60,000 nucleotides of DNA, taken from the NCBI RefSeq assembly GCF_002270355.1, contig NZ_NJFZ01000029.1:1-60000 (forward strand). Reading direction: 5' to 3'. Below the pieces are notes generated by a model, which made no database searches, had not been told where the DNA came from, and worked only from the letters and a program-made list of their open reading frames with translations. The translations under genes and the position numbers were made by a program. Each line of letters opens with the position of its first letter. Within the stretch, counting starts at the first letter, position 1. The DNA is from Flectobacillus sp. BAB-3569. Its GTDB lineage: Bacteria > Bacteroidota > Bacteroidia > Cytophagales > Spirosomataceae. Of the stretch, positions 29,942-43,092 are shown piece by piece.

Positions 29942-31279
29942 TTAGTATTTGAAGATTTTTGACCCAGCCATTACATTTTGAGTTTTTGCGTCAAACGTTA
30001 CTCTTTCGCCAGTACGATATGCTGCGTTAGCCATGATACAAGCAATTGAGTGTTGGTAACCTGCTTCGATTGGCGCATTTGGCGTTTTGCGAGAACGTAC
30101 ACATTCCATCCAGTTACGGATATGGTTTGATGTCAAAGCATCATAACCTGTGTTTGCGTTAGTTTCAATCTTAGTTACTTCGCTCAATGAAAGTTCAGGC
30201 AACAAGTTTGCTTTCATACCCATTTCTGCAGCTTCTCTTGCTGACAAACCACCACGAGGAGAGATTTTATTAGTTTCCAAGTTCAATTCACCACCGTTTG
30301 AGTAGTAAATTTCTTTGGTCCCACCTGCAGAGTTTGAGAAACGGCTTGTAAACTGTACTTGGAAGCCTTTGTTTTTGTCATTATCTGGGCCGTAATCAAA
30401 TACTACTGTCATAGTATCTGCATTTTTACGACCATCGTTCCACTGATAAATACCACCGTTGGCTACAGCACTACGTGGATGTTCCAAGCCTGTAAACCAG
30501 TGTACCGTGTCAATTTGGTGGCTCATCCATTGTCCAGGAATACCTGAAGAATAAGGCCAGAACAAACGGTATTCTAAGTATTTGCGTGGGTCAAATGAAT
30601 CAGCAGGACGGTTGATTAAGAAACGTTTCCAGTCGATATCCGACTCTTTTAAGATAGAAGTTAACTGAGGACGTCTCCAACGACCAGGCTGGTTCACGTT
30701 CCACATCAATTCTACCATTTTGATATCACCAAATTTTCCTGACTTGATATAATCCTCAGCCGCAAAGTAGTTTTGTCCACTACGACGTTGAGAACCAATT
30801 TGTACGATTTTTCCAGAGCTTTTTACGGCTTTCAATACCGCACGAGCATCATCCATCGTCTCTGCAAGTGGTTTTTCGGTATAAGTATCACAACCTGCTT
30901 GTACTGCTTCAATAGTGTGGATTGCGTGCTGGAAGTCAGCCGTAGAGATAAATACTGCATCTACTGCTTTGGCTGCATATAGCTCATCGTTATTGCGATA
31001 GGTGGTAATAGAGTTACCTAATTCTTTTTCCAAGAAAGCTTTTCCTTCTTCACGGCGACGATTCCAAAGGTCAGACACAGCTACCATTTCAAAGTTCATT
31101 TCTTTCATGAATGCTTTGAACGGAGGTACGTGTGAAGAACGGAAACGGTCAGAATAGCCAACACATCCTACACGGACACGGTCGTTGGCTCCTATAATTT
31201 TTGAGTATGATTTTGGACTAAAAGCCAAAGCACCTAAAGATGCAATAGCCGATTTTTTAACAAAGTCTCTTCTTTCCAT
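29942..31279 (-). CDS. GFO/IDH/MocA family oxidoreductase with Tat-type leader
   Basis: A 445-residue protein with a Bacteroidota Tat-type leader (MERRDFVKKSAIASLGALAF), so it is probably exported folded with its cofactor. The Rossmann domain has VRVGCVGYSDRFRS, VSDLWNRRREE and the family's EKPLAETMDDA with the conserved Lys. The C-terminal domain carries DIDWKRFLINRPA and GQWMSHQIDTVHWF, the latter with the HxxD-type motif of sugar-acting members. With the DUF1080 gene behind it at 31411, it suggests periplasmic oxidation of glycosides at C3. The exact sugar is unknown. Confidence 0.85.
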   Translation of the reverse strand: MERRDFVKKSAIASLGALAFSPKSYSKIIGANDRVRVGCVGYSDRFRSSHVPPFKAFMKEMNFEMVAVSDLWNRRREEGKAFLEKELGNSITTYRNNDELYAAKAVDAVFISTADFQHAIHTIEAVQAGCDTYTEKPLAETMDDARAVLKAVKSSGKIVQIGSQRRSGQNYFAAEDYIKSGKFGDIKMVELMWNVNQPGRWRRPQLTSILKESDIDWKRFLINRPADSFDPRKYLEYRLFWPYSSGIPGQWMSHQIDTVHWFTGLEHPRSAVANGGIYQWNDGRKNADTMTVVFDYGPDNDKNKGFQVQFTSRFSNSAGGTKEIYYSNGGELNLETNKISPRGGLSAREAAEMGMKANLLPELSLSEVTKIETNANTGYDALTSNHIRNWMECVRSRKTPNAPIEAGYQHSIACIMANAAYRTGERVTFDAKTQNVMAGSKIFKY

Positions 31280-31315
31280 GATAAACAGTGAGTTTGAAAT
31301 GATTAGTTACTAGGT

Positions 31316-31412
31316 AAAATTTGGAGGTAAATGTTTGGAGCTATCAGCAAATAGCTGTCGGCTTTCGGAAAAGTTAAAATCCGATTGCTGAATGCTGATA
31401 GCCGTTTGCTTT
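31316..31412. repeat. Degenerate intergenic repeat between the GFO/IDH and DUF1080 genes
   Basis: Words like CTATCAGCAAATAGCTGTCGG and GCTGAATGCTGATAGCCGTT face each other as imperfect inverted repeats, similar to those at 4160-4238. They fill much of the short gap, which does not separate the two genes' likely shared transcription. Confidence 0.45.
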
Positions 31413-32775
31413 AGTTTATTGTTCTAATCTTTAGATTTCTGAACGATACGTTGTCGCCGTGGTCTTGGAGGAGTATATTTCCTGTTTTGCCCATGCCAAA
31501 GCCGTCGTATTTGGCGTATTTGCTACGTGCTACAAGCGCTTTGAAAATGTTACTTCCTCTTTCATATTCTACCACTTTAAAGCCATTGAGCCAGTGTTGA
31601 ACAATATTGTTTGGATATACAATGATACGACCTTGGTTCCAATCTCCAATTTTTCTTTGGAAACGTTTGTCTGGTTTATAAGAAGGAATCAAGTCATACA
31701 AGCTACCCAAGGTACGGTTACCCACTGCACCCATTTTAGCATCTGGATGTTTTTCATCATCTAATACTTGAAACTCCAGACCCACGCCAGATTTACCATT
31801 TGAATCGAAGTCTTCGTTTACAAAATATTTTACCCCAGCATTAGCACCATCTGACAATTTAAACTCAAATGTTAGTTCGAATGCCCCGTACTGTTCGGTT
31901 GCCACGATGTCGTTGCCTGTTTCAGAGCCATCAGAAGGACTTACATTAATAGCACCATCAATTACTTTCCAGTGAATAGTTGGCATTTTATCTTGGTGAA
32001 CACCTCTCCAACCTGTAAAGTCTTTACCGTTGAAAAGCAATTTAAATCCTTGTGATTTTTCTTGCTCCGAAAGGGTATTGAGGGTAAGGTTTATAACAGG
32101 AGTACTGTCTGCTGGATGAGGATGAATATCTGCACCTGTTTGAATACGGATATTTCTCCAACGAATTTGCTGTCCAGGCGCTTGGTCTTTACCGATAGAG
32201 TGTACTTGCAAAGCAATAAATCCTTTGTCTGTTACATCATCAATCAAACAAGCTACTGGAATATCGTTAATCCAAGTACGAATAACATTGCCAATTGCCT
32301 CAACACGGTATTTGTTCCATTGTCCTCCACGTTTGAAAGCTTTTTGTCCCGCAGGGTTAATATTTGGAATATATAGCCAATCGCGACGACCTTCATCATA
32401 TAAACCTCCCGACCATGCACGGTCTGATGGGTCAACTTCCATTTGATAACCATGGACACGACCGTTTTGATAATCAGGTTTCGACAAACTTCTGAACTGG
32501 ATACCTGAGTTCATGCCTTCAGCTACGTTAAGTTCTACCTCGAAAACAAAATCACCATATTCTTTTTCTGTACACAAAAAGGAGTTGGGAGTTCCTGAAA
32601 CCGTTGTGCCCACGATTTCACCGTTTTTAACTTCATATTTAGCTTGCCCACCAAGTTGTTTCCAACCTTTCAAGGTTTTGCCATCAAATAATGAAGTCCA
32701 TTTTTCTTTTTGGGCATTAGCTGTAAAAGTGAGCGCACATACCAAAAGACATCCGTTAATAAACTTTTGTACCAT
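31411..32775 (-). CDS. Exported tandem DUF1080 protein (3-keto-glycoside hydrolase family)
   Basis: A 454-residue exported protein (signal peptide MVQKFINGCLLVCALTFTAN, cleavage after ANA). Two DUF1080 domains follow: residues about 22-210, starting WTSLFDGKTLKGWKQLGG, and about 240-454, starting FKLLFNGKDFTGWRGVH. Both keep the jelly-roll motifs FEVELNVAEGMNSGIQFRS and FEFKLSDGANAGVKYFVNED. DUF1080 proteins include 3-keto-disaccharide hydrolases. The neighbouring GFO/IDH/MocA enzyme could make the 3-keto substrate. The ATG at 32775 gives a signal peptide, so a longer frame from 32832 was rejected. Confidence 0.85.
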   Translation of the reverse strand: MVQKFINGCLLVCALTFTANAQKEKWTSLFDGKTLKGWKQLGGQAKYEVKNGEIVGTTVSGTPNSFLCTEKEYGDFVFEVELNVAEGMNSGIQFRSLSKPDYQNGRVHGYQMEVDPSDRAWSGGLYDEGRRDWLYIPNINPAGQKAFKRGGQWNKYRVEAIGNVIRTWINDIPVACLIDDVTDKGFIALQVHSIGKDQAPGQQIRWRNIRIQTGADIHPHPADSTPVINLTLNTLSEQEKSQGFKLLFNGKDFTGWRGVHQDKMPTIHWKVIDGAINVSPSDGSETGNDIVATEQYGAFELTFEFKLSDGANAGVKYFVNEDFDSNGKSGVGLEFQVLDDEKHPDAKMGAVGNRTLGSLYDLIPSYKPDKRFQRKIGDWNQGRIIVYPNNIVQHWLNGFKVVEYERGSNIFKALVARSKYAKYDGFGMGKTGNILLQDHGDNVSFRNLKIRTIN

Positions 32776-32942
32776 AGAATTTTTTAAATAGATAGTTTTA
32801 TACAAAAGTCTGGGATGTTTTTTTTTACTCAAAATGAGTATTTAAAAAGAGACGATTTAAGGTATGCTTCCGACATAAAGCAGGATAATACCATATAAGC
32901 TAGTAGAGAGTATGCAGTGTAAAACCTAATTTTAGTAATAAC

Positions 32943-32996
32943 GTGAACAGGCAAGGAGGCTCAAAGTGATTGTGTTAACACTCTTTGCCTGTTCAC
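32943..32996. repeat. GGCACAAAG-family inverted repeat
   Basis: GTGAACAGGCAAGGAG and CTCTTTGCCTGTTCAC pair almost perfectly around a 22-base loop containing CTCAAAGTGA. It lies 7 bases from the 3' end of the PfkB kinase gene, so it may terminate that minus-strand gene. The words belong to the dispersed AGGCAAAGAG family. Confidence 0.65.
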
Positions 32997-33003
32997 TTTG
33001 TTA

Positions 33004-33933
33004 CTAATCAACATAAAGTAATGCTTTGTCGACTTGGGCAGGGAGTGGTCCTTTGGTGACTAATTTGAGTGCTGCCAAGTTTGCACCCGCTTGTGAGCAA
33101 ACTGCTGGTGTTTTTCCTTCGCTAAAGGCTGTTAAAAATCCTGCCCAATAGGCATCTCCCGCACCCGTAGCATCTATAACTTCGATAGGTTTTACACCCA
33201 CTGTAATTTTTTCTTTTCCTTTATTATAAGAAATAACAGAGCCATCGCCACCTTTTGTCAAACAAATAAGGTCGGCGCCCATAGCATGAAAATCTGCTAA
33301 AATTTGTTCCTCTGTTACTCTTTTACCGTATAATCTTTCAGCGTCGTCTTCACTGAGTTTTACAAGTCCATCTTGGCCACAATATGCTGAAATAACTTTC
33401 CACGCTTGTTCTCTATCTGGCCAGATTTGAGGCGCATAATTACAGTCGATGCTAACACGGCAACCCAAGGCATTGGCACGCTTAGCGGCATCTACAATCG
33501 TACTTTGAGCAGGTTCTTGACTCAAGGCAAAGCAAGTAGTATGGAATACCGCTGACTCAGCCAGAAGTTCGTCAGAAATATGCTGAGGTTGCAACATGCG
33601 GTCGGCGGTGCGATATGCGATAAAATCGGGAGTGCCTTTTGTTCGAGATACCACAACGATACTCGTAGGCTGAAATGAGTCGACAGCAATGTGCTGTGTG
33701 TCGATACCAGTTTTTGCTACTTCGTCACGTAAAAAAACGCCTAGATTATCATTTCCAATACAAGAAATTAAGGCGACTGGTTGTCCCAAACGAGCCATGT
33801 TAGCGGCCATGTTGGCAGGACTACCCCCTTGAAAGCGTTCAAATTCAGGTGTTTCTAATATGCTAGAGGCTAATTCTGTTCCGATGAGGTCAACCAATAG
33901 TTCGCCTACCGAAAGTAGTACGTATTTTTTCAT
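33004..33933 (-). CDS. PfkB family carbohydrate kinase
   Basis: A 309-residue ribokinase/fructokinase-type kinase. The N-terminal GGSPANMAANMARLGQ and IGNDNLGVFLRDEV are the PfkB signature 1 region. VIDATGAGDAYWAGFLTA (about 253-270) holds the catalytic Asp and anion hole. FRTPDFIAYRTADRM-like DFIAYRTADRML fits a fructokinase, but the sugar cannot be fixed. A ROK-type or nucleoside kinase is excluded by these motifs. It may phosphorylate sugars released by the nearby DUF1080 system. Confidence 0.85.
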   Translation of the reverse strand: MKKYVLLSVGELLVDLIGTELASSILETPEFERFQGGSPANMAANMARLGQPVALISCIGNDNLGVFLRDEVAKTGIDTQHIAVDSFQPTSIVVVSRTKGTPDFIAYRTADRMLQPQHISDELLAESAVFHTTCFALSQEPAQSTIVDAAKRANALGCRVSIDCNYAPQIWPDREQAWKVISAYCGQDGLVKLSEDDAERLYGKRVTEEQILADFHAMGADLICLTKGGDGSVISYNKGKEKITVGVKPIEVIDATGAGDAYWAGFLTAFSEGKTPAVCSQAGANLAALKLVTKGPLPAQVDKALLYVD

Positions 33934-34028
33934 GATATAAAAATGGTTTTATGATTTGTGATGCAAATTAAAGATTTATTCCAAAGAATTTTATAGTTTA
34001 AATAAACAAACTAATTTCCTGAAAAGAT

Positions 34029-35282
34029 ATGTACAAAACACTACCTCTCATTACAATATTCTTATTTCATCTTGCTTTTGTCTCGTTTTCGTCAAATACT
34101 ACTCCTCAAAAGCAAAAAAGTACGATCAAAAAAGTTTCGGATGATGAAGCGCTCAGAAAGAAAGCCGATGCTTTGGCTCACCGTTTTGTGATTGTGGATG
34201 GTCACGTAGACTTGCCGTATCGTTTGCATGCCAAAATGGAGGACGTTTCAGTACAGACTTCGGGTGGCGATTTTGACTATGTTCGCGCTAAAAGAGGAGG
34301 TTTGACAGCGCCTTTTATGTCGATATATGTACCTGCTGATTTACAGAAAAGAAAAGGTTTTTCGAAAGCTTTAGCGGATTCGTTGATTGATTTGGTAGAA
34401 AACTTAACCAAAACCTATCCCGATAAATTTGCCTTAGCAAAAAGTCCAGCTGACATTTTGCAAAACTTCAAAAAAGGCTTGATTTCTTTGCCTATGGGTA
34501 TGGAGAACGGCTCGCCAGTAGAGAGTAATCTTGAAAACTTCAAACATTTCTACGACCGTGGTGTACGCTACATTACGCTGTGCCACGGCGAAGATAATTT
34601 TATTTGTGACACTTCTTATGATACCACTCGCACTTGGGGCGGTCTGAGCCCGATTGGTCGTCAGGTGGTACGCGAAATGAATCGTTTGGGTATCATGCTC
34701 GATTGTTCACATATCTCCGATGATACTTTCGAACAAGTGGTGGCTTTGTCTAAAGCCCCTGTTATTGCTTCACATTCATCTTGTCGCAGTTTTACCCCAG
34801 GTTTTATTCGGAATGCTCCCGATGTTTTGATTCAAAAAATGGCCAAAAAAGGAGGAGTTATCATGATTAATTTTAGCTCTATGTTTCTGGATTCAGCTTC
34901 AAACAAAGCCTACGAACTCAAACGCAATGCTATAAAAGCTTTTCAGAAAAGTAAAAACCTTTCTGCGGATGCACCAGAAGTACAGGCTTTTGAAAAAGAA
35001 TACGTGGCTAAGTACCCAACTCCGCTAACTACTGTAGAGCGAGTGGCTGATCATATAGATCATGTCGTAAAAATTGCAGGCATCGACCACGTAGGACTAG
35101 GTTCGGATTTTGATGGGGTAGGACCCACACTTCCAGATGGTCTCAAAGACTGTTCAGAAATACCGAATTTGATTTATATTTTGCTTAAAAGGGGCTATTC
35201 AGAAAAAGCTATCGAAAAGATTTGTTACAAAAACTTGTTCAGAGTGTGGAATCAGGTGGATAAGGTGGCGGAGAGGAAGTAG
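34029..35282 (+). CDS. Membrane dipeptidase (M19, renal dipeptidase family)
   Basis: A 417-residue exported M19 dipeptidase (signal peptide MYKTLPLITIFLFHLAFVSF). Zinc ligands and pocket residues are seen in VDGHVDLPYRLH (HxD near residue 57), MGMENGSPVESNLE (bridging Glu), DCSHISDDTFEQ, ASHSSCRSF and GLGSDFDGVG. It hydrolyses dipeptides, probably including murein or D-amino-acid-containing ones, in the periplasm. It has no same-strand partner. Confidence 0.9.
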   Translation: MYKTLPLITIFLFHLAFVSFSSNTTPQKQKSTIKKVSDDEALRKKADALAHRFVIVDGHVDLPYRLHAKMEDVSVQTSGGDFDYVRAKRGGLTAPFMSIYVPADLQKRKGFSKALADSLIDLVENLTKTYPDKFALAKSPADILQNFKKGLISLPMGMENGSPVESNLENFKHFYDRGVRYITLCHGEDNFICDTSYDTTRTWGGLSPIGRQVVREMNRLGIMLDCSHISDDTFEQVVALSKAPVIASHSSCRSFTPGFIRNAPDVLIQKMAKKGGVIMINFSSMFLDSASNKAYELKRNAIKAFQKSKNLSADAPEVQAFEKEYVAKYPTPLTTVERVADHIDHVVKIAGIDHVGLGSDFDGVGPTLPDGLKDCSEIPNLIYILLKRGYSEKAIEKICYKNLFRVWNQVDKVAERK

Positions 35283-35350
35283 AGAGTCTGAATATGAACG
35301 TTCTCAATTTTATTAGCGTATGAAAGACTATTTTTAATCTAGATTTAGCA

Positions 35351-35376
35351 GTAGAGACACAATGCTTTGCGTCTAA
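35351..35376. repeat. GAGACG arm of the composite repeat family
   Basis: GTAGAGACACAATGCTTTGC followed by GTCT forms a short imperfect hairpin, as at 6669 and 15061. Confidence 0.55.
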
Positions 35377-35519
35377 AGATATGTCAATGTCATCCCAAAT
35401 TTTGAGATTTCTTCATAAAGTATTTTGTTCTTGAATGTCAACATTCAACCTTTAGACCATTGAGCTTTAGATAGTGCTAAAATTTTCTGTGATGATAAGG
35501 GATTTTGTGTCGGTTCATT

Positions 35520-35557
35520 AAAACGGCGTTCGAAATGAGTTTTTCGAACGCCGTTTT
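35520..35557. repeat. Hairpin of the composite repeat family / putative terminator
   Basis: AAAACGGCGTTCGAAA pairs with TTTCGAACGCCGTTTT around a 6-base loop. The gap 35283-35635 lies between convergent genes and holds only this hairpin, the 35351 arm and a weak TAATCACTCAGTC word at 35586. Confidence 0.75.
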
Positions 35558-35635
35558 GATAACACTATCTATCATTTATATTACGATAATCACTCAGTCA
35601 ACAATCACGTAATTAGGAATGATTTATCCGTGTAC

Positions 35636-36322
35636 TTATACAGGAATAGCATTTCTTCTATCTTTTACCAGCAGAGGTATATATTTATTTTTAATCTGTA
35701 TGTCCCCTAATCCTAGTCTTTGGTATATATTTCCACCTATACCAGGGATAACTTCGTCCTCATCCGAAATTTCATCATCGATGGCAAAATAGATATATTC
35801 AAACTTTTTACTTATAGAAGATTCAAATTCTTTATTAAGAGAATTCTCTGCTGATTTGAACATAACAGGAGCAACTATGAAGATTTTATCTGGATTAATT
35901 TGATTAATAAGAAACATCAAATTTGTTCGCACAACACATGAAGTATAAATAATCGATTTACAAATTATTAAGGTCTTACAGTTTGAAATTTCTTCGATAT
36001 AAGACTTCACAATTGGAGCTATTGTGAGTTCTCTATCATTGTCAACTTTTGCTCGTAAGTTCCAAAATACAGCCAAATTGATATTGGTATTCCATAAAGT
36101 CTGTAGTATTCCTTTGCCAAGCCAATCTGCATCTTCAGAGGTACAGGCAAGTACTATTTTTTCAGAAGAAGTAATTTTGGGATTAATATGTAAAGCCAGC
36201 TTTCTACCTAAAATACTTAGAGCATTCGCATAAATCTCTGCACGAGTTTGCTTATCAGCTAATAGAGAAAGATTAGCCTGAATTTCTTCATCTTGTTGGG
36301 CAAAAATTGTATATTCTCTCAT
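35636..36322 (-). CDS. Uracil phosphoribosyltransferase-like protein with degenerate PRPP loop
   Basis: A 228-residue protein that follows the layout of uracil phosphoribosyltransferase (Upp) from end to end. LADKQTRAEIYANALSILGR matches the N-terminal helix (LRDKxT...), and IVLACTSEDADWLGKGIL the VVPILRAGLGMVDG strand and turn. FAIDDEISDEDEVIPGIG then RLGLG matches ASIDxxLNEHGYIIPGLGDA...FGT. But the Upp PRPP-binding loop DPMLATGGS is replaced by ICKSIIYTSCVVRTN, so PRTase activity is doubtful. It starts 5 bases after the nuclease-like gene and is likely cotranscribed with it. The motif comparison is by eye and the sensor or effector role is inference. Confidence 0.6.
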   Translation of the reverse strand: MREYTIFAQQDEEIQANLSLLADKQTRAEIYANALSILGRKLALHINPKITSSEKIVLACTSEDADWLGKGILQTLWNTNINLAVFWNLRAKVDNDRELTIAPIVKSYIEEISNCKTLIICKSIIYTSCVVRTNLMFLINQINPDKIFIVAPVMFKSAENSLNKEFESSISKKFEYIYFAIDDEISDEDEVIPGIGGNIYQRLGLGDIQIKNKYIPLLVKDRRNAIPV

Positions 36323-36327
36323 GGGAT

Positions 36328-37197
36328 TTATGCAATAATAGTTTCTAAGGCTTCAAAACTGCTAGGCTTTTGGATCACAATCTCAATTTCAATTTCTTCA
36401 AAATCAGGACTTCCGATTGGAAATGGAATGATACCAGTATCGGTATTTTTAAACTTCCATGTTAAATAGTTATTGTGAACAATGTAGCTAAAATTAGGAA
36501 TTAAATCTAAAATCAATTGTATTTCTTTCGACAAATAAAAAATCTCTCTAGGTCTGATAAATGATAGTGACATCTTTTCTAAGTGAGCATATATGACTTC
36601 AAGCGATATATCTTTTTTATTACAACCGTTCCAAACACCTAAGATGGCAGTTGCCAAGGCTTCCAATTTATCTATGGAGGGTGAACTAATGGCGATTAGC
36701 TTTTCTAGCTCTTGTCTAAAATCTAGATGCTGGCTAACTAAATTATGAATACTATCTGAATATGGGAAATATCCAACTTCAGTGTGCTGACGTAAGCTTT
36801 TGGGAAGTGATTGAGTTAAAATCAGTTGTAAGGACACAGAATTTACGATAAGTAATAATCTGAACTTGGAGTCTTGTTCTTTTTCAATTCGTTTCTGATT
36901 TAAAAAGTCATAGCATAAGCTTTTTTGCTTATTTCCATGTTCCCATTTTAACGATTTGCTATTCTTGATTTGATAAAACTCTTTGTTGCCTTCCTCTAAA
37001 ATAATTAGTAAGTCATCTACAAATGCCTCAACTTGGGATGAGAAAACTACTTGTGCTTTCGATTCTGAATATGAGTTTAGGTATTCTGTAATTTTGAAAA
37101 TGGCAAAGTGATTTTCAAATCTATTGCCCTTTTCATTATTAGCTCCTCCTTTCAGTTTATGGCTAAGATATTGTTTCTTTTTAGATGTAGTGCTCAT
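36328..37197 (-). CDS. Putative Mrr/DUF4297-like (PD-(D/E)XK) nuclease
   Basis: A 289-residue protein with a restriction-endonuclease-like N-terminus: GNRFENHFAIFKITEYLN (Glu28), an acidic pair FVDDLLIILEE (Asp61/Asp62), and the QxK motif EFYQIKNSKSLKW (Gln76, Lys78). This is the pattern of Mrr- and DUF4297/Cap4-type nucleases in defence and restriction systems. Residues 120-289 show no familiar domain. The next gene, 5 bases downstream, is a degenerate Upp-like protein. Together they look like a small defence or conflict cassette. This is inference, since no classical restriction or defence marker is adjacent. Confidence 0.55.
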   Translation of the reverse strand: MSTTSKKKQYLSHKLKGGANNEKGNRFENHFAIFKITEYLNSYSESKAQVVFSSQVEAFVDDLLIILEEGNKEFYQIKNSKSLKWEHGNKQKSLCYDFLNQKRIEKEQDSKFRLLLIVNSVSLQLILTQSLPKSLRQHTEVGYFPYSDSIHNLVSQHLDFRQELEKLIAISSPSIDKLEALATAILGVWNGCNKKDISLEVIYAHLEKMSLSFIRPREIFYLSKEIQLILDLIPNFSYIVHNNYLTWKFKNTDTGIIPFPIGSPDFEEIEIEIVIQKPSSFEALETIIA

Positions 37198-37326
37198 GGT
37201 ATCCTTAGATGTGGTTGTATAAAGTAAAGTTAAACGAATAATATTACTTTAAAAAATAGAGTCCTATATTTTAGCTCCCCATTCATCCACCTTTTCGACC
37301 GCTCTCCATTTGGCTTTGTTTTATGC

Positions 37327-37358
37327 TTGACTTTTTAATTTTAAATGTCCTATATTTG
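37327..37358 (+). promoter_or_regulatory. Promoter of the DoxX-ABC-GntR operon
   Basis: TTG at 37327-37329 and TATATTTG at 37351-37358, 21 bases apart, fit the Bacteroidota consensus. The start of transcription would fall inside the palindromic operator at 37359-37384, so a bound repressor would block it directly. Confidence 0.65.
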
Positions 37359-37384
37359 TAGTGTACTATTTAACTAATACACTA
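37359..37384. promoter_or_regulatory. Candidate GntR/YtrA operator
   Basis: TAGTGTA and TACACTA are perfect 7-base inverted arms with a 12-base spacer. The site lies between the -7 box and the ATG at 37386. GntR-family operators are commonly of the GTnTAnAC type, and the operon encodes a YtrA-like GntR protein at 39673, which makes autoregulation likely. Confidence 0.6.
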
Positions 37385-37385
37385 A

Positions 37386-37988
37386 ATGAAGTTTATTCTG
37401 ACGCAGCGATGGATTGTAGGGTGTATTCGATTTTGGTTGGGTTTTATCTTGCTGAGTGCAGGGGTTACCAAAATGTTACACGGCAATTTTATCCAACTCA
37501 TTGGTCCTCCTTGGTTGATTGAGGTACTAGCCAAACATCAATTGGGTTTGTTTGCCGAGTTTATTGCCATTAGTCAAATCATCATCGGCTTTTGTTTGCT
37601 CGTCAAGCGATTTGCAACCTTAGGGGCAGTTATGGCTATTCCGATGTTTCTGAATATTCTGATGGTGACTATTTCACAAGACTGGCGAGGAACACCTTAT
37701 GTGGTAGGGTTCTTTTTGGCTTGTAATATTTACCTTTTGATATGGGATTTTGATAAACTCAAATTTTTGCTCACCGATCAGGAGGAGGCGATTCCGAAGG
37801 GAGGAATTATTAGAAAAGACCTACAAATAGACTTGCTATATCTCATTGGTTTGGTGCCCATATTACTGGCAGTGTTGATGGCCATGCCTTTGAGAGCTTC
37901 TCAGATACTTGCATTTGGAGGTCTGGCTTGGTGGGCTGGTGTGTACGTTTGGCAATTGATTAAAAAACAAAAAAATATTCATAAATAA
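37386..37988 (+). CDS. DoxX-like integral membrane protein
   Basis: A 200-residue protein with four or more membrane helices (FWLGFILLSAGVTKMLHG; FAEFIAISQIIIGFCLLV; LGAVMAIPMFLNILMVTI; LLYLIGLVPILLAVLMA). The F-x-GFxLLSAG and Lys/Met-His-Gly pattern is that of the DoxX/MauE-like superfamily. Function is unknown. It is the first gene of the operon, directly behind the promoter and operator, with 32 bases to the ABC ATPase. Confidence 0.7.
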   Translation: MKFILTQRWIVGCIRFWLGFILLSAGVTKMLHGNFIQLIGPPWLIEVLAKHQLGLFAEFIAISQIIIGFCLLVKRFATLGAVMAIPMFLNILMVTISQDWRGTPYVVGFFLACNIYLLIWDFDKLKFLLTDQEEAIPKGGIIRKDLQIDLLYLIGLVPILLAVLMAMPLRASQILAFGGLAWWAGVYVWQLIKKQKNIHK

Positions 37989-38020
37989 GAAATCTTCACA
38001 TCAACCTCAAAACTCAAAAT

Positions 38021-38854
38021 ATGGTTTCAATTCATAATTTAGGATTTGGTTATAGCAAGAAAAAGCCTGTATTTGAAGGGCTCAATCTTGAACTCCAAGC
38101 AGGCAATGTCTACGGATTACTTGGGCGTAATGGCGCAGGGAAATCCAGCCTACTGCGTAATATCGCGGGTTTACTTACACCTACATCAGGGCAATGTACC
38201 GTCAATGGGCATACGCCACATTTGCGACAACCGAAGTTTTTGCAAGAGTTATTTTTCTTACCAGAAGAACTACATATTCCACCCATCAGCATGAAGGAAT
38301 TTGTGTCGGTGTATGCAGTATTTTACCCAAATTTTTCCCAAAACCAATTAACCGAATATCTCAAGGAGTTTGAGGTGGATAGTTCGGCACGACTTACCGA
38401 ATTGTCGTTGGGACAAAAGAAAAAGGCCTTGATTAGTTTTGCGTTGGCTACCAATACGCCTTTGTTGATTATGGACGAACCTACCAATGGCTTGGATATC
38501 CCGTCGAAAAGTCAGTTTCGAAAAATCATTGCTTCTTCGATTACCAATGAAAGAGTTATTCTGATTTCGACGCACCAAGTACGTGACCTTGAATCTTTGA
38601 TTGACCCGATTATTATCATGGATAACCGAGAAGTTTTGCTCAATGCAGGTACCGATGTGATAGCTGAAAAGCTTTCTTTCAAAACCGTTCAGCAAGTGAC
38701 TAATCATGAAAAAGTCCTTTATTCTGAGCATTCTATCAGAGGATTTGGTATTGTGATTCCAAACGAAGATGAGTCATATACCAAAGTGGATTTGGAGTTG
38801 TTGTTCAATGCAGCTTTAGAGAAGCCACAGGTAATCAAGCAATTATTTAACTAA
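38021..38854 (+). CDS. ABC transporter ATP-binding protein (YtrB-like)
   Basis: A 277-residue ABC ATPase: Walker A GLLGRNGAGKSSLLRNIAGL (about residues 33-52), signature LSLGQKKKA, Walker B LLIMDEPTNGLD, and the H-loop STHQVRDLE. The short C-terminal extension is typical of the exporter type regulated by GntR/YtrA proteins. It pairs with the permease at 38883. The substrate is unknown, and such systems often respond to cell-wall or peptide stress. Confidence 0.85.
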   Translation: MVSIHNLGFGYSKKKPVFEGLNLELQAGNVYGLLGRNGAGKSSLLRNIAGLLTPTSGQCTVNGHTPHLRQPKFLQELFFLPEELHIPPISMKEFVSVYAVFYPNFSQNQLTEYLKEFEVDSSARLTELSLGQKKKALISFALATNTPLLIMDEPTNGLDIPSKSQFRKIIASSITNERVILISTHQVRDLESLIDPIIIMDNREVLLNAGTDVIAEKLSFKTVQQVTNHEKVLYSEHSIRGFGIVIPNEDESYTKVDLELLFNAALEKPQVIKQLFN

Positions 38855-38882
38855 ACTTGGAAAAACTTTTTAGATAGAAAAC

Positions 38883-39668
38883 ATGAATCAAACATTAGAT
38901 ATACAAAGATTAGGGTGGTTAATCAAACGCATTTGGGTCGAGAACCGAAAGCTGTTTGGCATGACCTACGTTGTAATGGTACTGTTGTGTATTGCAGCTT
39001 ATTATTTAGGACGTGATGCGGGTGGCGCTATTGTGGATAGAGACATCAGATTTGGAAGCTTGATTGTCGGAATGTTTGGGCTAGGAGTATTGTTTGCCAA
39101 CTATATTTTCAGAGATTTTTCTCATACACCTTCTACGATGAGTTATTTGTTGCTTCCTGCATCGCATTTAGAAAAATTCTTGAGTGGACTTTTTTATGTG
39201 TTTATTGTTTATCCGATTGTCATTATTTCAACACATTCATTGATTGATTATGCTGCATTCGAAATCATAAAGTTTTCTTATCCAGATACTCCTATGGAAA
39301 GGACGATTATTTCCTATTCAGAGCTTTTTGAAACATACTTTACTGTTCAGGATACAATGTTTTTCAATGGTGTTACAATACTGACAAACTTCTGGACTTT
39401 CACGATTATGGGGACTTTGTTTTTTCAACGATTGTCTTTGATTAAAACAGGATTTTTAGGGTTTTCGAGTATTGCCATCATTGCCTTATTGGAATACTTA
39501 ATGTTCCATTACATCATCGGCGATTTGAATAATAATATCTCATTTAATACTGAGAAAGACTCGTTTTTAACAGTCTATATCACCTTAGGTATCGTTCTGA
39601 TTCGCTTTATTCTACCTCTGTTTTGGTTGTTGATTGCATATTTAAAGTTAAAGGAAAAGGAGGTTTAA
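38883..39668 (+). CDS. ABC transporter permease-like membrane protein
   Basis: A 261-residue protein with about six membrane helices (FGMTYVVMVLLCIAAYYLG; FGSLIVGMFGLGVLFANYIF; FYVFIVYPIVIIST; and others through LILPLFWLLIAYL-like ILPLFWLLIAYLKLKEK). It is an ABC-2-type export permease by position, behind the ATPase and four bases ahead of the GntR gene. No substrate signature is visible. Confidence 0.7.
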   Translation: MNQTLDIQRLGWLIKRIWVENRKLFGMTYVVMVLLCIAAYYLGRDAGGAIVDRDIRFGSLIVGMFGLGVLFANYIFRDFSHTPSTMSYLLLPASHLEKFLSGLFYVFIVYPIVIISTHSLIDYAAFEIIKFSYPDTPMERTIISYSELFETYFTVQDTMFFNGVTILTNFWTFTIMGTLFFQRLSLIKTGFLGFSSIAIIALLEYLMFHYIIGDLNNNISFNTEKDSFLTVYITLGIVLIRFILPLFWLLIAYLKLKEKEV

Positions 39669-39672
39669 CATC

Positions 39673-40041
39673 ATGGAATTTAGAGAAAACCAAGCCATAT
39701 ATCTCCAAATAGCAGAGCTAATTTGTGAGAGAATACTGCTCAAACAATGGGCATCAGAAGATAAAGTTCCTTCTGTCAGAGAACTTGCCGTTCAATTAGA
39801 AGTTAATCCCAACACAGTTATGAGAACGTATGATTTTTTAGAACAAAAAGGTATCATTTTTACCAAAAGAGGCATGGGCTTTTTTGTATCAACCGATGCA
39901 CACGATAAAGTGACGGAGTTTCGACGTGAAGAGTTTTTACAAAATGAATTACCTCAGTTCTTCAAAGCCATTCACTTATTGGGAATCGACTTTTCAGAAT
40001 TACAAAATAGATTTGAAGCTTTTAAAACCGAAAATTATTAA
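39673..40041 (+). CDS. GntR family regulator, YtrA subfamily
   Basis: A 122-residue protein: the winged helix-turn-helix of GntR (residues about 7-75: AIYLQIAELICERILLKQWA, KVPSVRELAVQLEVNPNTVM, YDFLEQKGIIFTKRGMGFFV) followed by only a short C-terminal helical region, the YtrA form. It probably represses its own operon through the TAGTGTA-TACACTA site at 37359-37384. Four bases separate it from the permease and three from the next gene. Confidence 0.9.
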   Translation: MEFRENQAIYLQIAELICERILLKQWASEDKVPSVRELAVQLEVNPNTVMRTYDFLEQKGIIFTKRGMGFFVSTDAHDKVTEFRREEFLQNELPQFFKAIHLLGIDFSELQNRFEAFKTENY

Positions 40042-40044
40042 TCT

Positions 40045-40689
40045 ATGAAGACATCCAACAAACTCCTTGTGACAATGGTAGCCTTGGTCATCATAGGGTT
40101 ACTAAGTTTTAATATCACTTTAAAGGGCAAATTAGTTGAGTACAGGGAAACTCACAAGAATATGAAGTTAGTTTTAAAGCCATTCAAGTATTTAACACTT
40201 CGTTCAAAAGCTAGTAATTATGTAAATGTGGATATTGCCCAAAATCCAGAATATGCTTTGTTAAGTGCTAAGGAAGGTATTACACAAAAATATGTTGGTG
40301 ATACACTGGTGCTAGAACTCAACGAATCCGTAGATTATATGCAATTACAGTTGCCAAGAGTTTTAGGTATCAATGTGACAAGTGGAGATGCTATCCAAAT
40401 TAACATAGGCAATACCTTTAAAGTGGATAGTCTATGGATAAGATCACAAATTTCTAGCACGACACTTGAATTAAGTGGTATCGAAACTGCCAATTTGGAT
40501 TTATATTCTTCTCAGTCCTTAATCGTGAATTTAGACCGTATAAAAGCTGATCGTTTAGCAATAAATGGAGGAAGAAATAGTGAGCTAAGAATAAAAGACA
40601 CGAAAGTTCAACCGAATCAGTTGATCTTGAGCGACAGTATTGCTGTACAGGTTTTGGGTAAAGATGCGATGAAGATATTGAATAAATAA
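40045..40689 (+). CDS. Membrane-anchored beta-helix (DUF2807-like) protein
   Basis: A 214-residue protein with an N-terminal membrane anchor or signal (LLVTMVALVIIGLLSFNITL) and a body of short repeating strands (LDLYSSQSLIVNLDRIKADR), reminiscent of DUF2807 head-GIN beta-helices. It is the last gene of the GntR operon and may sense or tolerate envelope stress. I am not sure of the domain assignment. Confidence 0.6.
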   Translation: MKTSNKLLVTMVALVIIGLLSFNITLKGKLVEYRETHKNMKLVLKPFKYLTLRSKASNYVNVDIAQNPEYALLSAKEGITQKYVGDTLVLELNESVDYMQLQLPRVLGINVTSGDAIQINIGNTFKVDSLWIRSQISSTTLELSGIETANLDLYSSQSLIVNLDRIKADRLAINGGRNSELRIKDTKVQPNQLILSDSIAVQVLGKDAMKILNK

Positions 40690-40702
40690 GGAGTAATAAT
40701 GT

Positions 40703-40743
40703 AAAAAGGCACAAAGAGGATTTAGCTTCTTTGTGCCTTTTTT
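40703..40743 (+). terminator. Terminator of the GntR-ABC operon
   Basis: AAAAAGGCACAAAG pairs with CTTTGTGCCTTTTTT around a loop with GATTTAGC, ending in a run of T, 14 bases past the operon. The stem belongs to the dispersed GGCACAAAG words, a case of a repeat acting as a terminator. Confidence 0.85.
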
Positions 40744-40747
40744 AGTT

Positions 40748-40800
40748 AATTTCTTAGTGTCTCGAAGTTTACTTTTATCAGCATTGTTCTTGTTTTGATA
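40748..40800 (-). other. Remnant of a small membrane-protein gene
   Basis: On the minus strand, GATAAAAGTAAACTTCGAGA followed by CACTAAGAAATTAA matches the 3' end of the small gene at 43188-43357 (GGTAAAAGTAAAATTCTAGA, then CACTAAGAAATTAG). It has no start and no upstream coding part, so it is a duplication remnant next to the 94-bp element. Confidence 0.6.
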
Positions 40801-40805
40801 AACTC

Positions 40806-40899
40806 CTAGTTCAAGACTTAGTCTTGGACTTATTTTTTAAACAGTTTATAAACTGAAACAAACGCCAGTCCGAGACTAAGTCTCGAACTAGTGAGGTAT
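40806..40899. repeat. 94-bp inverted-repeat element, copy A
   Basis: Base for base identical to 43372-43465. The ends CTAGTTC(A/G)AGACTTAGTC are inverted repeats of about 25 bases with paired substitutions. Each arm is itself palindromic (AAGACTTAGTCTT; GAGACTAAGTCTC). The centre reads AAACAGTTTATAAACTG. It lies just downstream of the small membrane protein at 40926. No transposase is encoded. Confidence 0.9.
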
Positions 40900-40925
40900 A
40901 ACCTTCATTCCCAAAGAGACTAAAC

Positions 40926-41099
40926 TTATTTTTGCTTTTTTACTTTGGTAGTAATTACAAAAACAACAACAACGACTAAGAACCCAATTAGAGCTGGAAA
41001 TTGAAATAGTTCATCGGGACTGAATTTATTATTTTTAAATCCTAAGTAAATTAGAAACATAATCATACTTATTCCTAAAAGAGGTATTCCATTTTTCAT
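40926..41099 (-). CDS. Small two-helix membrane protein (57 aa)
   Basis: A 57-residue frame with an ATG at 41099 and two hydrophobic segments (IPLLGISMIMFLIYLG; FPALIGFLVVVVFVITT) and a Lys-rich tail. Similar plan and size to the small gene at 43188-43357, with which it probably shares origin. No function is known. The plausible membrane topology, the Lys tail and the clustered relatives support a real gene. Confidence 0.5.
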   Translation of the reverse strand: MKNGIPLLGISMIMFLIYLGFKNNKFSPDELFQFPALIGFLVVVVVFVITTKVKKQK

Positions 41100-41223
41100 A
41101 AGGCTTTAATAATTAAATAGTTAGACAAGGGGGCTCACGAAAAGAAGCTACTTTCATCTTTTTTACCTTAAACGATACCATTTAAGGTAATTAAAATCAG
41201 ATAGGAGATATACAATTAACGTA

Positions 41224-41754
41224 TCACTTTTTATCAGTTTCTCGGAAAATATATACCGTTAGTACTCCAGTCATAAATCCTCCTACAAACCAAAGTGATT
41301 TAGATAAACTCGTGAAGGGTGAAAGCTTTTGAAATGAAAAAGTAGCATCGGAACTTGATGCCATATAGAAGGCGATTACGAACCATAATAGGGCAGTTGG
41401 AAATTTGAATTTCATGGTGTAAAACCACTTGCCTTCAGTGTTATAAAGTATTCTTCTCAGTTCTGGAATGATGAGAGAATCTTCTTCACTATATGTCGGG
41501 CTTGATATTTTGTTGACAGAAAACGATTTTACTTTACCATTCCCATCAATGGTAAAATAAAAAAATGCTGCCCATCCATTGCAATGAAGACTATCATAAT
41601 CTGATTTCCCTCGAACGCCTCTGTTAATAAGATCGGTAAATGTTGCCTTTCTATGCGCTCGATCATATACCCAAAGTTTAGGTTTTCGAGTATCAATCAG
41701 AGAGCATGAACCTAAATATAAGCTCAAAAAGCTAATTATTACAATGCGTAACAT
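41224..41754 (-). CDS. Lipoprotein related to the tandem secreted paralogues
   Basis: A 176-residue protein with a lipobox (SLYLGSC, Cys17). It resembles the two following genes in plan: a conserved central FTIDGNGKVKSFSVNK-type strand pair, IIPELRRILYNTEGKW, and a hydrophobic FPTALLWFVIAF block. Unlike them it ends in a likely membrane helix (SLWFVGGFMTGVLTVYIF). Function is unknown. Confidence 0.6.
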   Translation of the reverse strand: MLRIVIISFLSLYLGSCSLIDTRKPKLWVYDRAHRKATFTDLINRGVRGKSDYDSLHCNGWAAFFYFTIDGNGKVKSFSVNKISSPTYSEEDSLIIPELRRILYNTEGKWFYTMKFKFPTALLWFVIAFYMASSSDATFSFQKLSPFTSLSKSLWFVGGFMTGVLTVYIFRETDKK

Positions 41755-41783
41755 TGATTTTGTGGTAGATTTTCATTTATTAG

Positions 41784-42367
41784 TTAACGATCCATTTGTC
41801 CCACTGAGATTGGATTTAGTGTCATCCCAACAAATTTTATTGCAGAAGCCCTAAAGTCTACCGATTTATAAACGGAAGAATCTACTGGAGATTCATGCTT
41901 TTGAAATGTAATCAATGATAGAAAATCAATAGCAGTTCTCATACCCAAGGCATCAGGTTCCATTATTTCTGTAGCATTTAATGGAATACAATCTCGTCTT
42001 TTCATGACGATTCTAATTGGAAGTAAAAAGACTAATGAAGGATTTGCTTTTTTGCAGTTCTTAATACTCCATATTGATTCCGTGTTGATAAGCGATTTTC
42101 TTACCAAACTCATGATTGTTGTATCGACCAAGTTCTTGGAAAATTGGAGCGTTTTAATTTTACCATTTCTTCTATCAAGCTCAAATCTAGCAGAAAATAT
42201 AAACTCTGCACATTTCCTATAATGAGACTGATTAACCAATTTCAGTAGTTCTAACCATATTTTCTCCTCTGGTTGGAGTTTTGACTTAGACACAGTGAGT
42301 TCTTGCGCTAGTAAAGTAGAACAAGCCATAAGTTTCAATAGCACAATTAGAGATATGGTTTTTTCAT
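41784..42367 (-). pseudogene. Secreted paralogue 2, frameshifted in its signal peptide
   Basis: The readable frame (from about 42344) begins MLLKLMACSTLLAQELTVSKSKLQPE, matching the paralogue at 42508-43092. The paralogue's start MKIIISLIVLLKL is encoded here by ATG at 42367 followed by AAAAAA CC. With seven A instead of six the frame reads MKKTISLIVLLKLMACSTLLA and the protein is 194 residues, exactly the paralogue's length. So one base is missing at 42359-42364. The body has FSARFELDRRNGKIKTLQFS and NPSLVFLLPIRI. Function is unknown. Confidence 0.7.
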
Positions 42368-42507
42368 CGGGTTAATGTTTCGGTAGATTGGACTTTGGTG
42401 TATGTGTTTGATAATGAATATTTTTCATTGTTTGTGTTTTCGTTTAGCTGTCATTGGAGCGAAGAATAGCACTTAGGAAATGATTTCGTTAAAGATTATA
42501 GATGAAC

Positions 42508-43092
42508 CTATTTGTATTTAACTCCACATACTATAGGGTTAAGTGTCATACCTACAAATTTAACATTGGGAACCCTAAATATATCTTCTTTGTAAACCGC
42601 AGAATCTGTTGCATATTCGGTTTTTGGAAAGGTGATCATGGACTTAAAATCCAATGATTCTCTAACACCTGACATATCTTCAAAATTGGATGAAGGAATA
42701 TGGTTACAGGCTCCTTCCTCCTTATGTATACCTATACTAATAGGGAGTAAAAAAAGTAAGGAAGGGTTATTTTTTTTACAATTCTTAAGAATCCATATTG
42801 ACTCCTTATTGTAGAGAGCCTTCCTAACAGAACTGATTATTGCAGTATCAAGTAAGTTCTCCGAGAACTTGAGATTTTTGAAGCGCCCTGATTTTTTATC
42901 AAGTTCAAACTTAATAGAAAACATATATGAACCACACTTTTTAAAATTTGCTCTGTCGAGTACCCTCCATAATTCAAATTGAATTTCTAGCTCTGGCTGA
43001 AGTTTTGACTTAGACATGGGAAGTTCTTGTGCTAGTAAAGTAGAACAAACAGTTAGTTTCAATAGCACAATCAGAGATATGATTATTTTCAT
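42508..43092 (-). CDS. Secreted paralogue 1, unknown function
   Basis: A 194-residue exported protein (signal peptide MKIIISLIVLLKLTVCSTLLA). It is a close relative of the gene at 41784-42367, with shared SKSKLQPE, FELDKKSGRFKNLKFSENLL, NCKKNNPSLLFLLPISI and the ending VKFVGMTLNPI. The upstream regions of the two (GTTAATGTTTC, GTAGATTGGA and so on) are alike as well, so the duplication included the promoter. Function is unknown. Confidence 0.65.
   Translation of the reverse strand: MKIIISLIVLLKLTVCSTLLAQELPMSKSKLQPELEIQFELWRVLDRANFKKCGSYMFSIKFELDKKSGRFKNLKFSENLLDTAIISSVRKALYNKESIWILKNCKKNNPSLLFLLPISIGIHKEEGACNHIPSSNFEDMSGVRESLDFKSMITFPKTEYATDSAVYKEDIFRVPNVKFVGMTLNPIVCGVKYK

Follow-up and report, generated by a model that had tools for sequence, protein, structure and literature searches.

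The Locus and Its Chromosomal Site

Two genes on the minus strand are the subject of this analysis of a 60,000-nucleotide stretch of Flectobacillus sp. BAB-3569 DNA, referred to throughout as the window. Gene A lies upstream of gene B. The original prediction had described two genes 5 bases apart, and both open reading frames (ORFs) were confirmed at the coordinates given for them. The features of the locus are listed below in window coordinates, each with its basis.

36328–37197, minus strand: gene A, 289 amino acids (ORF call)
35636–36322, minus strand: gene B, 228 amino acids (ORF call)
36323–36327, minus strand: intergenic gap of 5 bases between A and B (ORF coordinates)
36964–37116, minus strand: putative nuclease motif of A, E28...D61-D62...Q76-x-K78 (alignment of 29 A sequences)
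36125–36136, minus strand: B residues 63–66, E-D-A-D, at the position of the Upp PPi loop, which reads R-A-S in the Upp of the same genome (placed by hand from predicted secondary structure)
35936–35959, minus strand: B residues 122–129, KSIIYTSC, at the position of the Upp PRPP loop, DPMLATGK (alignment with Upp; same placement against a PDB UPRTase)
35735–35746, minus strand: B residues 193–196, P-G-I-G, the retained uracil-hood motif (alignment of 37 B sequences)
35285–37274, no strand: 1990-bp block with the A–B pair (comparison with the same-genus genome G001)
35517–35560, no strand: 19-nt inverted repeat with a 6-nt loop downstream of B, a possible terminator (repeat search)

The inverted repeat was not recovered by a terminator scan, and Rfam gave no match at 35000–37700. 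Around the pair lie a dipeptidase gene (Peptidase_M19), a sugar-kinase-like gene, a small membrane protein with no Pfam match, and an ABC transporter; the sugar kinase and the transporter were named by eye from their ORFs. Among the ORFs at 30000–43000, neither a defense gene nor a CD-NTase gene was recognized by eye. Farther along, at 41784–43092, two adjacent minus-strand ORFs of 186 and 194 amino acids look alike by eye and are perhaps a tandem duplication.

Comparison with G001 defines the limits of the pair. At the corresponding site in that genome (L120, 1492–2461), a 970-bp block takes the place of the 1990-bp A–B block. The flanks on the two sides are 92% and 90% identical, and the two blocks share no similarity. 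The G001 block encodes a PIN-domain protein and a weakly RelB-like antitoxin, the latter matched below the Pfam cut-off. The A–B pair is thus a self-contained cassette, at a site held in G001 by a toxin–antitoxin (TA) module. The chromosomal site at 35285–37274 looks like an exchange slot for TA-type modules, with the PIN/RelB-like module as its occupant in G001.

Gene A Resembles Cap4/DUF4297 Nucleases

The product of gene A is built from an N-terminal PD-(D/E)xK nuclease domain of the Cap4/DUF4297 type (about residues 16–125) and a C-terminal part (about residues 175–250) that is judged winged-helix-like from its predicted secondary structure, a helix-helix-helix-hairpin arrangement across residues 175–249. 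A nuclease pattern of this type had been proposed from the window alone, and the residues named at the time are all found at the numbers assigned to them. In the alignment, which counts the window copy among its 29 sequences, D61, D62, Q76, and K78 never vary, and E28 is kept in 28, the exception being L035, where the start lies in another frame. From the alignment, E28, D61, D62, Q76, and K78 would constitute a PD-(D/E)xK center of the Q-x-K type.

The predicted structure contains the expected nuclease core. An AlphaFold model of A (pLDDT 88.7, pTM 0.76, from a 26-sequence alignment) finds its best PDB matches by Foldseek in the Cap4 structures 6wam (E 7.4e-5) and 6wan (E 8.9e-5), with TM scores by query length of 0.39 and 0.38, respectively, and of 0.29 for 6wam by target length. 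These two are the sole matches at E<=0.001; R.BspD6I, LmuA, and HerA-DUF (9c1m_G, E 0.031) are weaker. At the level of sequence, Pfam Cap4_nuclease (PF14130) matches A at E 3.6e-4, below its curated cut-off, and reaches E<=0.01 in only 2 of the 29 A members. It is the only Pfam family in the result, from which a SAVED domain is absent, and a search of PDB sequences with the A profile gave no match below E 0.37. The model and the conserved residues place A in the Cap4/DUF4297 class, and A would be expected to cut DNA.

The C-terminal part of A also bears a weak profile resemblance to repeats in a cyanobacterial NYN-domain protein (best repeat i-E 1.1e-4). This protein (L130, 40–2049, in genome G858) has 669 amino acids, an NYN match, and C-terminal repeats weakly like the C-terminal domain of A; as judged from the profiles, the two are possibly of the same winged-helix type. 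NYN proteins such as this one are known to carry OST-HTH/LOTUS winged helices, for which there was no Pfam hit here.

Gene B Has a UPRTase Fold with Rewritten Loops

Gene B had been read as a protein with the layout of the uracil phosphoribosyltransferase (UPRTase) Upp that lacks the PRPP loop, and structure prediction agrees on both counts. The AlphaFold model (pLDDT 91.7, pTM 0.90, from a 33-sequence alignment) has the UPRTase 3dmp_C as its best PDB match (E 2.1e-10), and 21 of the first 26 rows of matches are titled UPRTase, with TM scores by query length of 0.61–0.72. The other five (1v9s three times, 2e55, and 7rh8, which is Fur1p) we take to be UPRTases as well; rank 27 is a hypoxanthine-guanine enzyme. 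Similarity to phosphoribosyltransferases (PRTases) had been proposed as a check on the assignment, and it is found in the fold, with sequence matches that stay below curated cut-offs. Pfam UPRTase matches B at E 0.003, below its cut-off, and matches 7 of the 37 B members at E<=0.01. The B profile finds the Sulfolobus solfataricus UPRTase at E 3.5e-4 (best domain i-E 0.02). Alignment of the profile with the Upp of the same genome by hhalign gives a probability of 5% (E 0.0077), and BLASTP between these two proteins aligns only 17 residues. Given such sequence matches, the PRTase link of B rests on the fold. No family in the searched libraries, PADLOC and NCBIfam included, matched B above cut-off.

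B was rejected as a housekeeping Upp, since the genome has its own upp with a DPMLATGK loop at G000:C120:90286-90897. A weak UPRTase match with two internal stop codons lies at G000:C10:8268-8573 and is perhaps a frame or model artifact.

The loops that carry out PRPP chemistry in Upp have been rewritten in B. Alignment with the Upp of the same genome (P0009) shows the PRPP loop, DPMLATG[GK], replaced by KSII-x-x-x-C, in which K122, S123, I125, and C129 are present in 37 of 37 sequences. The R-A-S of the Upp PPi loop becomes E63-D64-A65, between a strand at 56–61 and a helix at 62–75, a placement made by hand from the predicted secondary structure because MAFFT shifts the Upp row at this point; E63, D64, and D66 are likewise found in all 37. 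The hood motif, P193-G194-x-G196, retains P193, G194, and G196 in every sequence. The Asp that follows the hood in Upp is Gly in 36 of the 37, and the one exception, L036, runs off its contig.

With Glu and Lys in place of the PPi-loop Arg and the PRPP-loop Asp in 37 of 37 sequences, PRPP chemistry has very probably been lost, and B is very probably not a PRTase. PyrR, a UPRTase homolog that became an RNA-binding regulator, offers a precedent for such repurposing. The pocket loops of B are still under strict constraint, and a salt bridge between E63 and K122 that closes the old active site could be one reading of it. The original prediction had offered B as a sensor of PRPP or pyrimidines, or as an inhibitor. 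A PRPP sensor is unlikely, because the rewriting extends to the PPi loop (E63 in 37 of 37) and, in 36 of 37 sequences, Gly has taken the place of the Asp that Upp has behind the hood; the pyrimidine sensor is unproven, and the part that gains ground is the inhibitor, through the pattern of gene loss described below.

Constraint of this kind would also be expected if B had become a new enzyme, with a pocket of E63, D64, D66, K122, and D182 that acts on a nucleobase, a nucleoside, or another metabolite and so makes or removes a signal for A. The pocket-loop residues are invariant in the manner of catalytic ones (37 of 37), the uracil-hood motif has been kept, and B is conserved even as an orphan. 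However, B falls into no searched family above cut-off, and the invariant positions could equally be structural, as in the E63–K122 salt bridge, which leaves a new enzymatic activity an unlikely explanation.

Distribution and Pairing

With B as query plus two exact peptide patterns, a scan of 84,980 species genomes found 37 loci. By this design the scan cannot find A without B, and the 37 are a lower bound. The loci come from Bacteroidota, Cyanobacteria, Pseudomonadota, and one metagenome-assembled genome (MAG) labeled Paceibacterota. Two cyanobacterial plasmids add two loci, for 39 besides the window.

Whether the two genes stay neighbors in other genomes had been named as a check on the pairing, and they do. 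Directly upstream of B and on the same strand, A is near full length in 29 of the 39 loci (in one of these, L035, it is split over two frames), partial in 4, and absent in 6. The partial copies lie near a contig end (L014) or across contig ends (L015), lack the N-terminal half in frame (L039), or carry an internal deletion (L021). The loci with no A upstream are L006, L012, L030, L036, and the B remnants L040 and L041.

Two of these loci deserve separate mention. The L015 pair spans the ends of a 9535-bp contig of a Beijerinckiaceae MAG, which suggests a small circular plasmid. In L035, from the MAG labeled Paceibacterota, B is 98% identical to that of Paraburkholderia locus L033, and the contig is probably misbinned.

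Of the 31 locus rows that have both genes, 19 show a 4-base overlap; in this set the window copy is included, one same-genus locus appears twice, and start codons were chosen by script. The distances between A sequences and between B sequences correlate at r 0.93 across 27 loci (L002 and L035 excluded), a value that none of 2000 shuffles equaled, although such a correlation is expected for any linked genes too. Pairing of A with B is far above chance. The view that the two are chance neighbors with unrelated functions could draw on the Pfam matches being below cut-offs, but it is extremely improbable when 33 of 39 loci, from at least three phyla, have A immediately upstream of B (a partial A in 4) and so many rows show a 4-bp overlap.

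The pair is rare. Among 395 Bacteroidota genomes, A and B are both present in one, the genome of the window itself; among 386 Cyanobacteria, A is intact in six and B in nine, with one further weak match in G563 (E 1.7e-4). Phage records and viral contigs, the latter searched by pattern scans, yielded no relative of B, and a pattern scan of viral contigs likewise found no relative of A. A distant DNA search, not a protein search, with the Marinobacter pair found no relative in E. coli genomes. A 6.7-kb stretch of the 10-kb plasmid L003 has, besides the pair, annotated genes for a replication protein, an HTH protein, and hypothetical proteins.

Defense Genes in the Neighborhood

The relatives of the pair sit among defense genes more than control loci do, and the window copy has not been seen to. 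At E<=1e-10, 167 PADLOC families were matched by 127 neighbors of the pair versus 14 by 128 control proteins. The figure of 167 is inflated by redundant models, 67 of which are matched by a single type I specificity gene. The neighbors are the nearest 127 of 220 proteins within 4.5 kb of the pair, and the controls come from 15 of 20 chosen places, fixed in position on contig 1, in the same set of genomes. The original prediction had noted that the pair was not flanked by known defense genes. That stands for the window copy, as judged by eye, and does not extend to its relatives, some of which do adjoin such genes.

Druantia-like helicases adjoin the pair at L004, L013, and L073. L028 has a type III restriction enzyme as neighbor, of which the model matches two of the 127 neighbors, and a type IIG-like enzyme, an HmaB-like methylase, and a type II methylase are found at L024, L011, and L073, respectively. 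Type I specificity genes lie near L012, L036, and L074, and the orphan B of L012, L036, and G588 adjoins type I restriction–modification (R-M) genes. No third gene recurs, the commonest Pfam families being found in 5 of the 127 neighbors, and of eight large neighbors scanned singly, the two at L015 and L018 had no match.

The Druantia-like helicases have 1700–1780 amino acids and occur on either side of the pair in cyanobacterial loci (L004, 6780–11897; L013, 1843–7182; L073, 3–5282). At L012, L036, L030, and L074, an orphan B adjoins a TA- or antitoxin-like gene (PIN, DUF3368, or HicB-like), and at three of these four, type I restriction–modification genes lie beside it.

These neighborhoods bear on the idea of a restriction-type system, in which A would cut marked or unmarked foreign DNA, B would be the specificity or DNA-reading subunit, and the pairs near R-M genes would be accessories of those systems. 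R-M or methylase genes near L004, L011, L012, L024, L028, L036, L073, and L074 fit the idea, as does the winged-helix resemblance in the C-terminal part of A. It is nevertheless distinctly improbable, with neither a methylase nor any third gene recurring among the neighbors, the pair alone making up the 1990-bp block, and only replication, HTH, and hypothetical genes accompanying it in the L003 plasmid stretch.

One-Sided Gene Loss and Selection on Gene B

Searches led by the nuclease found 11 distinct genomes with an intact A, and an intact B adjoins it in all 11. One came from the 395 Bacteroidota, six from the 386 Cyanobacteria, and ten from 156 genomes in one cyanobacterial order (those six included). 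Three of them (G000, G453, and G464) were search centers known to hold the pair, and without them the count is 8 of 8. A further search with the nuclease covered 22 genomes that had been reached through B loci; 18 of these have A, and the result was not counted as independent.

The opposite state occurs in several forms. An intact B lies beside a truncated A in G518 and G700, beside an A that contains stop codons and changes of frame in G896, and beside an A with an internal deletion in L021. In G518, an ORF that looks transposase-like by eye separates the A pieces. The B genes of G518 and G700 are identical over 243 codons, so their loss of A is probably one event. Genome-wide searches found no A for L006, L012, and G588, nor was one found on the contigs of L030 and L036. 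In the 386-genome sample, an intact B with a broken or missing A is found in three genomes versus none for the reverse, too few for a firm test. The A of L007 was considered as a broken copy and rejected, because the flagged TAG seems, as judged from the ORF, to precede the start codon. G596 has a lone fragment of A and no B match.

L012 and L036 are collinear, with 88.6% identity along a 1278-bp stretch that reaches from the PIN module across most of B, so their orphan state probably predates their split; G588, with similar type I R-M flanks, may share the same event. Between these two orphans, B has evolved under purifying selection, with a dN/dS of 0.134 at a dS of 0.46 over 190 codons. For comparison, where both copies have A, the dN/dS of B is 0.062 (L007–L008), 0.122 (L028–L029), 0.131 (window–L005), 0.164 (G907–G931), and 0.191 (L013–L032). 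Where A is broken, the value is 0.29 at a dS of 0.15 for G700 against L013, above the paired range of 0.06–0.19, and 0.174 for G896 against G907. Constraint may be relaxed in G700, and with these last two values, constraint on B after the loss of A is not proven everywhere. The pattern of loss looks like an antidote that outlives its toxin, or like a B with a second role, and the purifying selection on orphan B could reflect a function unrelated to A.

The main rival to a TA-like model is that B is an activator or scaffold, an oligomeric UPRTase fold that joins Cap4-type nuclease domains and activates them on meeting its trigger, in the way of HerA with DUF4297, with A inactive alone. In work on HerA–DUF4297, a HerA ATPase motor activates a nuclease that is inactive alone, and this nuclease class needs partner-driven dimerization (PMC11291478, PMC12198126); such logic is opposite to that of a toxin held in check, and it counts against the TA-like reading. 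The tight coupling and coinheritance of A and B would also follow from activation, and abpA and abpB likewise overlap by 4 nt. A pure activator should decay without its nuclease, however, and the orphan B of L012 and L036 is under purifying selection without A. An inactive A would, moreover, permit loss of B at least transiently, and an intact A without B is found in none of the 11 genomes. On balance, activation by B is doubtful.

A Candidate Toxin–Antitoxin-Like Module

The best explanation, with a probability of roughly 0.5, is that the pair is a TA-like or abortive-infection module, probably antiphage, that stands alone and moves horizontally, and in which B neutralizes A and may sense the trigger. 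The toxic effector would be A, a Cap4/DUF4297-type DNase with a winged-helix-like tail. B would be a former uracil phosphoribosyltransferase without PRPP chemistry that now binds and restrains A. Through its remodeled pocket, or through its oligomeric state, B probably detects a change tied to phage or damage, and this would free or assemble the nuclease. We infer from the combined evidence that A cuts DNA, that B binds and neutralizes A, and that phage infection is the trigger.

Support for the TA-like reading comes from the invariant motifs, the coupling and coinheritance of the genes, the one-sided loss of A, selection on orphan B, the site swap with a PIN TA module, and the defense genes near relatives. 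The gene-loss pattern is what favors B as an inhibitor or antitoxin over B as a sensor alone. Against a TA or antiphage role stand the window copy, beside which no defense gene was seen, and the phage and viral records, with no B relative. The toxin-first gene order also counts against it, as this is not the commonest layout of TA systems. A more specific version is tentative: a dead UPRTase with charge-swapped loops (R to E, D to K) would hold a Cap4-type DNase inactive until a nucleobase- or nucleotide-like phage signal in its pocket releases it. If this version were true, the pair would represent a new defense family and a new antitoxin class, and in the orphans B would be an antidote that has been kept or a regulator that neighboring restriction systems have captured. 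Given the natural orphans and the TA/cassette site swap, the inhibitor hypothesis lends itself to direct testing.

Comparison with Known Systems

The pair had been proposed as one with no described counterpart, and literature searches surfaced none among the open-licence papers listed. The pair has a fair chance of being a new defense family. A PRTase is among the domains of validated E. coli systems listed in a figure legend of the DefensePredictor report (PMC13092281), and the system that bears it may be related to the A–B pair.

Among systems with a Cap4-like nuclease, HerA–DUF4297 also combines an N-terminal domain of this kind with a second protein, and its structure is one of the weaker PDB matches of A (9c1m_G). 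Its partner HerA is an ATPase, in contrast to the UPRTase fold found here. The AbpAB system of E. coli is similar in its Cap4-domain nuclease with Asp and Gln-x-Lys and in its two-gene operon with a 4-nt overlap. Asp45, Gln58, and Lys60 of AbpA match Cap4 catalytic positions, and Q58A or K60A abolishes defense (PMC10732053). The same source gives AbpA 538 amino acids with a HamA-like part and AbpB a helicase domain, whereas B has a UPRTase fold. The CBASS effector Cap4 supplies the best structural matches of A (6wam and 6wan), but A has 289 amino acids and no SAVED match in Pfam, and B has a UPRTase fold rather than that of a nucleotidyltransferase.

Among systems with a PRTase fold, Upp shares with B the fold and the PG-x-G hood motif and differs from it in the PPi-loop Arg and the PRPP-loop Asp, which are Glu and Lys in B. 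Type III-A retrons also place a PRTase fold in a conflict system, and the PADLOC model weakly matches B (E 0.0047). The one retron PRTase examined, at L095, keeps an acidic PRPP loop, unlike B, and has an RT adjoining. L095 is a type III-A-like retron whose PRTase has a C-terminal extension. Membership of the pair in this group was rejected, as the PADLOC model is unspecific (at E<=0.001 it has matches in 58 of 178 Bacteroidota genomes) and this contig lacks an RT; the genome has two RT matches, both on other contigs.

Type II TA systems resemble the pair in their coupled genes, one-sided loss (few independent events here), orphan second gene, plasmid carriage, and the exchange with a PIN TA module. 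Most known type II antitoxins are small proteins that bind DNA or are partly disordered, and the partner here differs in having a UPRTase fold. Cap4-type nucleases are known defense effectors, with cyclic nucleotides, ATPases, and helicases as the control schemes in the work cited here. The effector class and the two-gene layout are already known; the UPRTase-fold partner matches no PADLOC or NCBIfam family above cut-off. A partner with the fold of a metabolic enzyme, present across three or more phyla, would bring a new principle of control to these nucleases.
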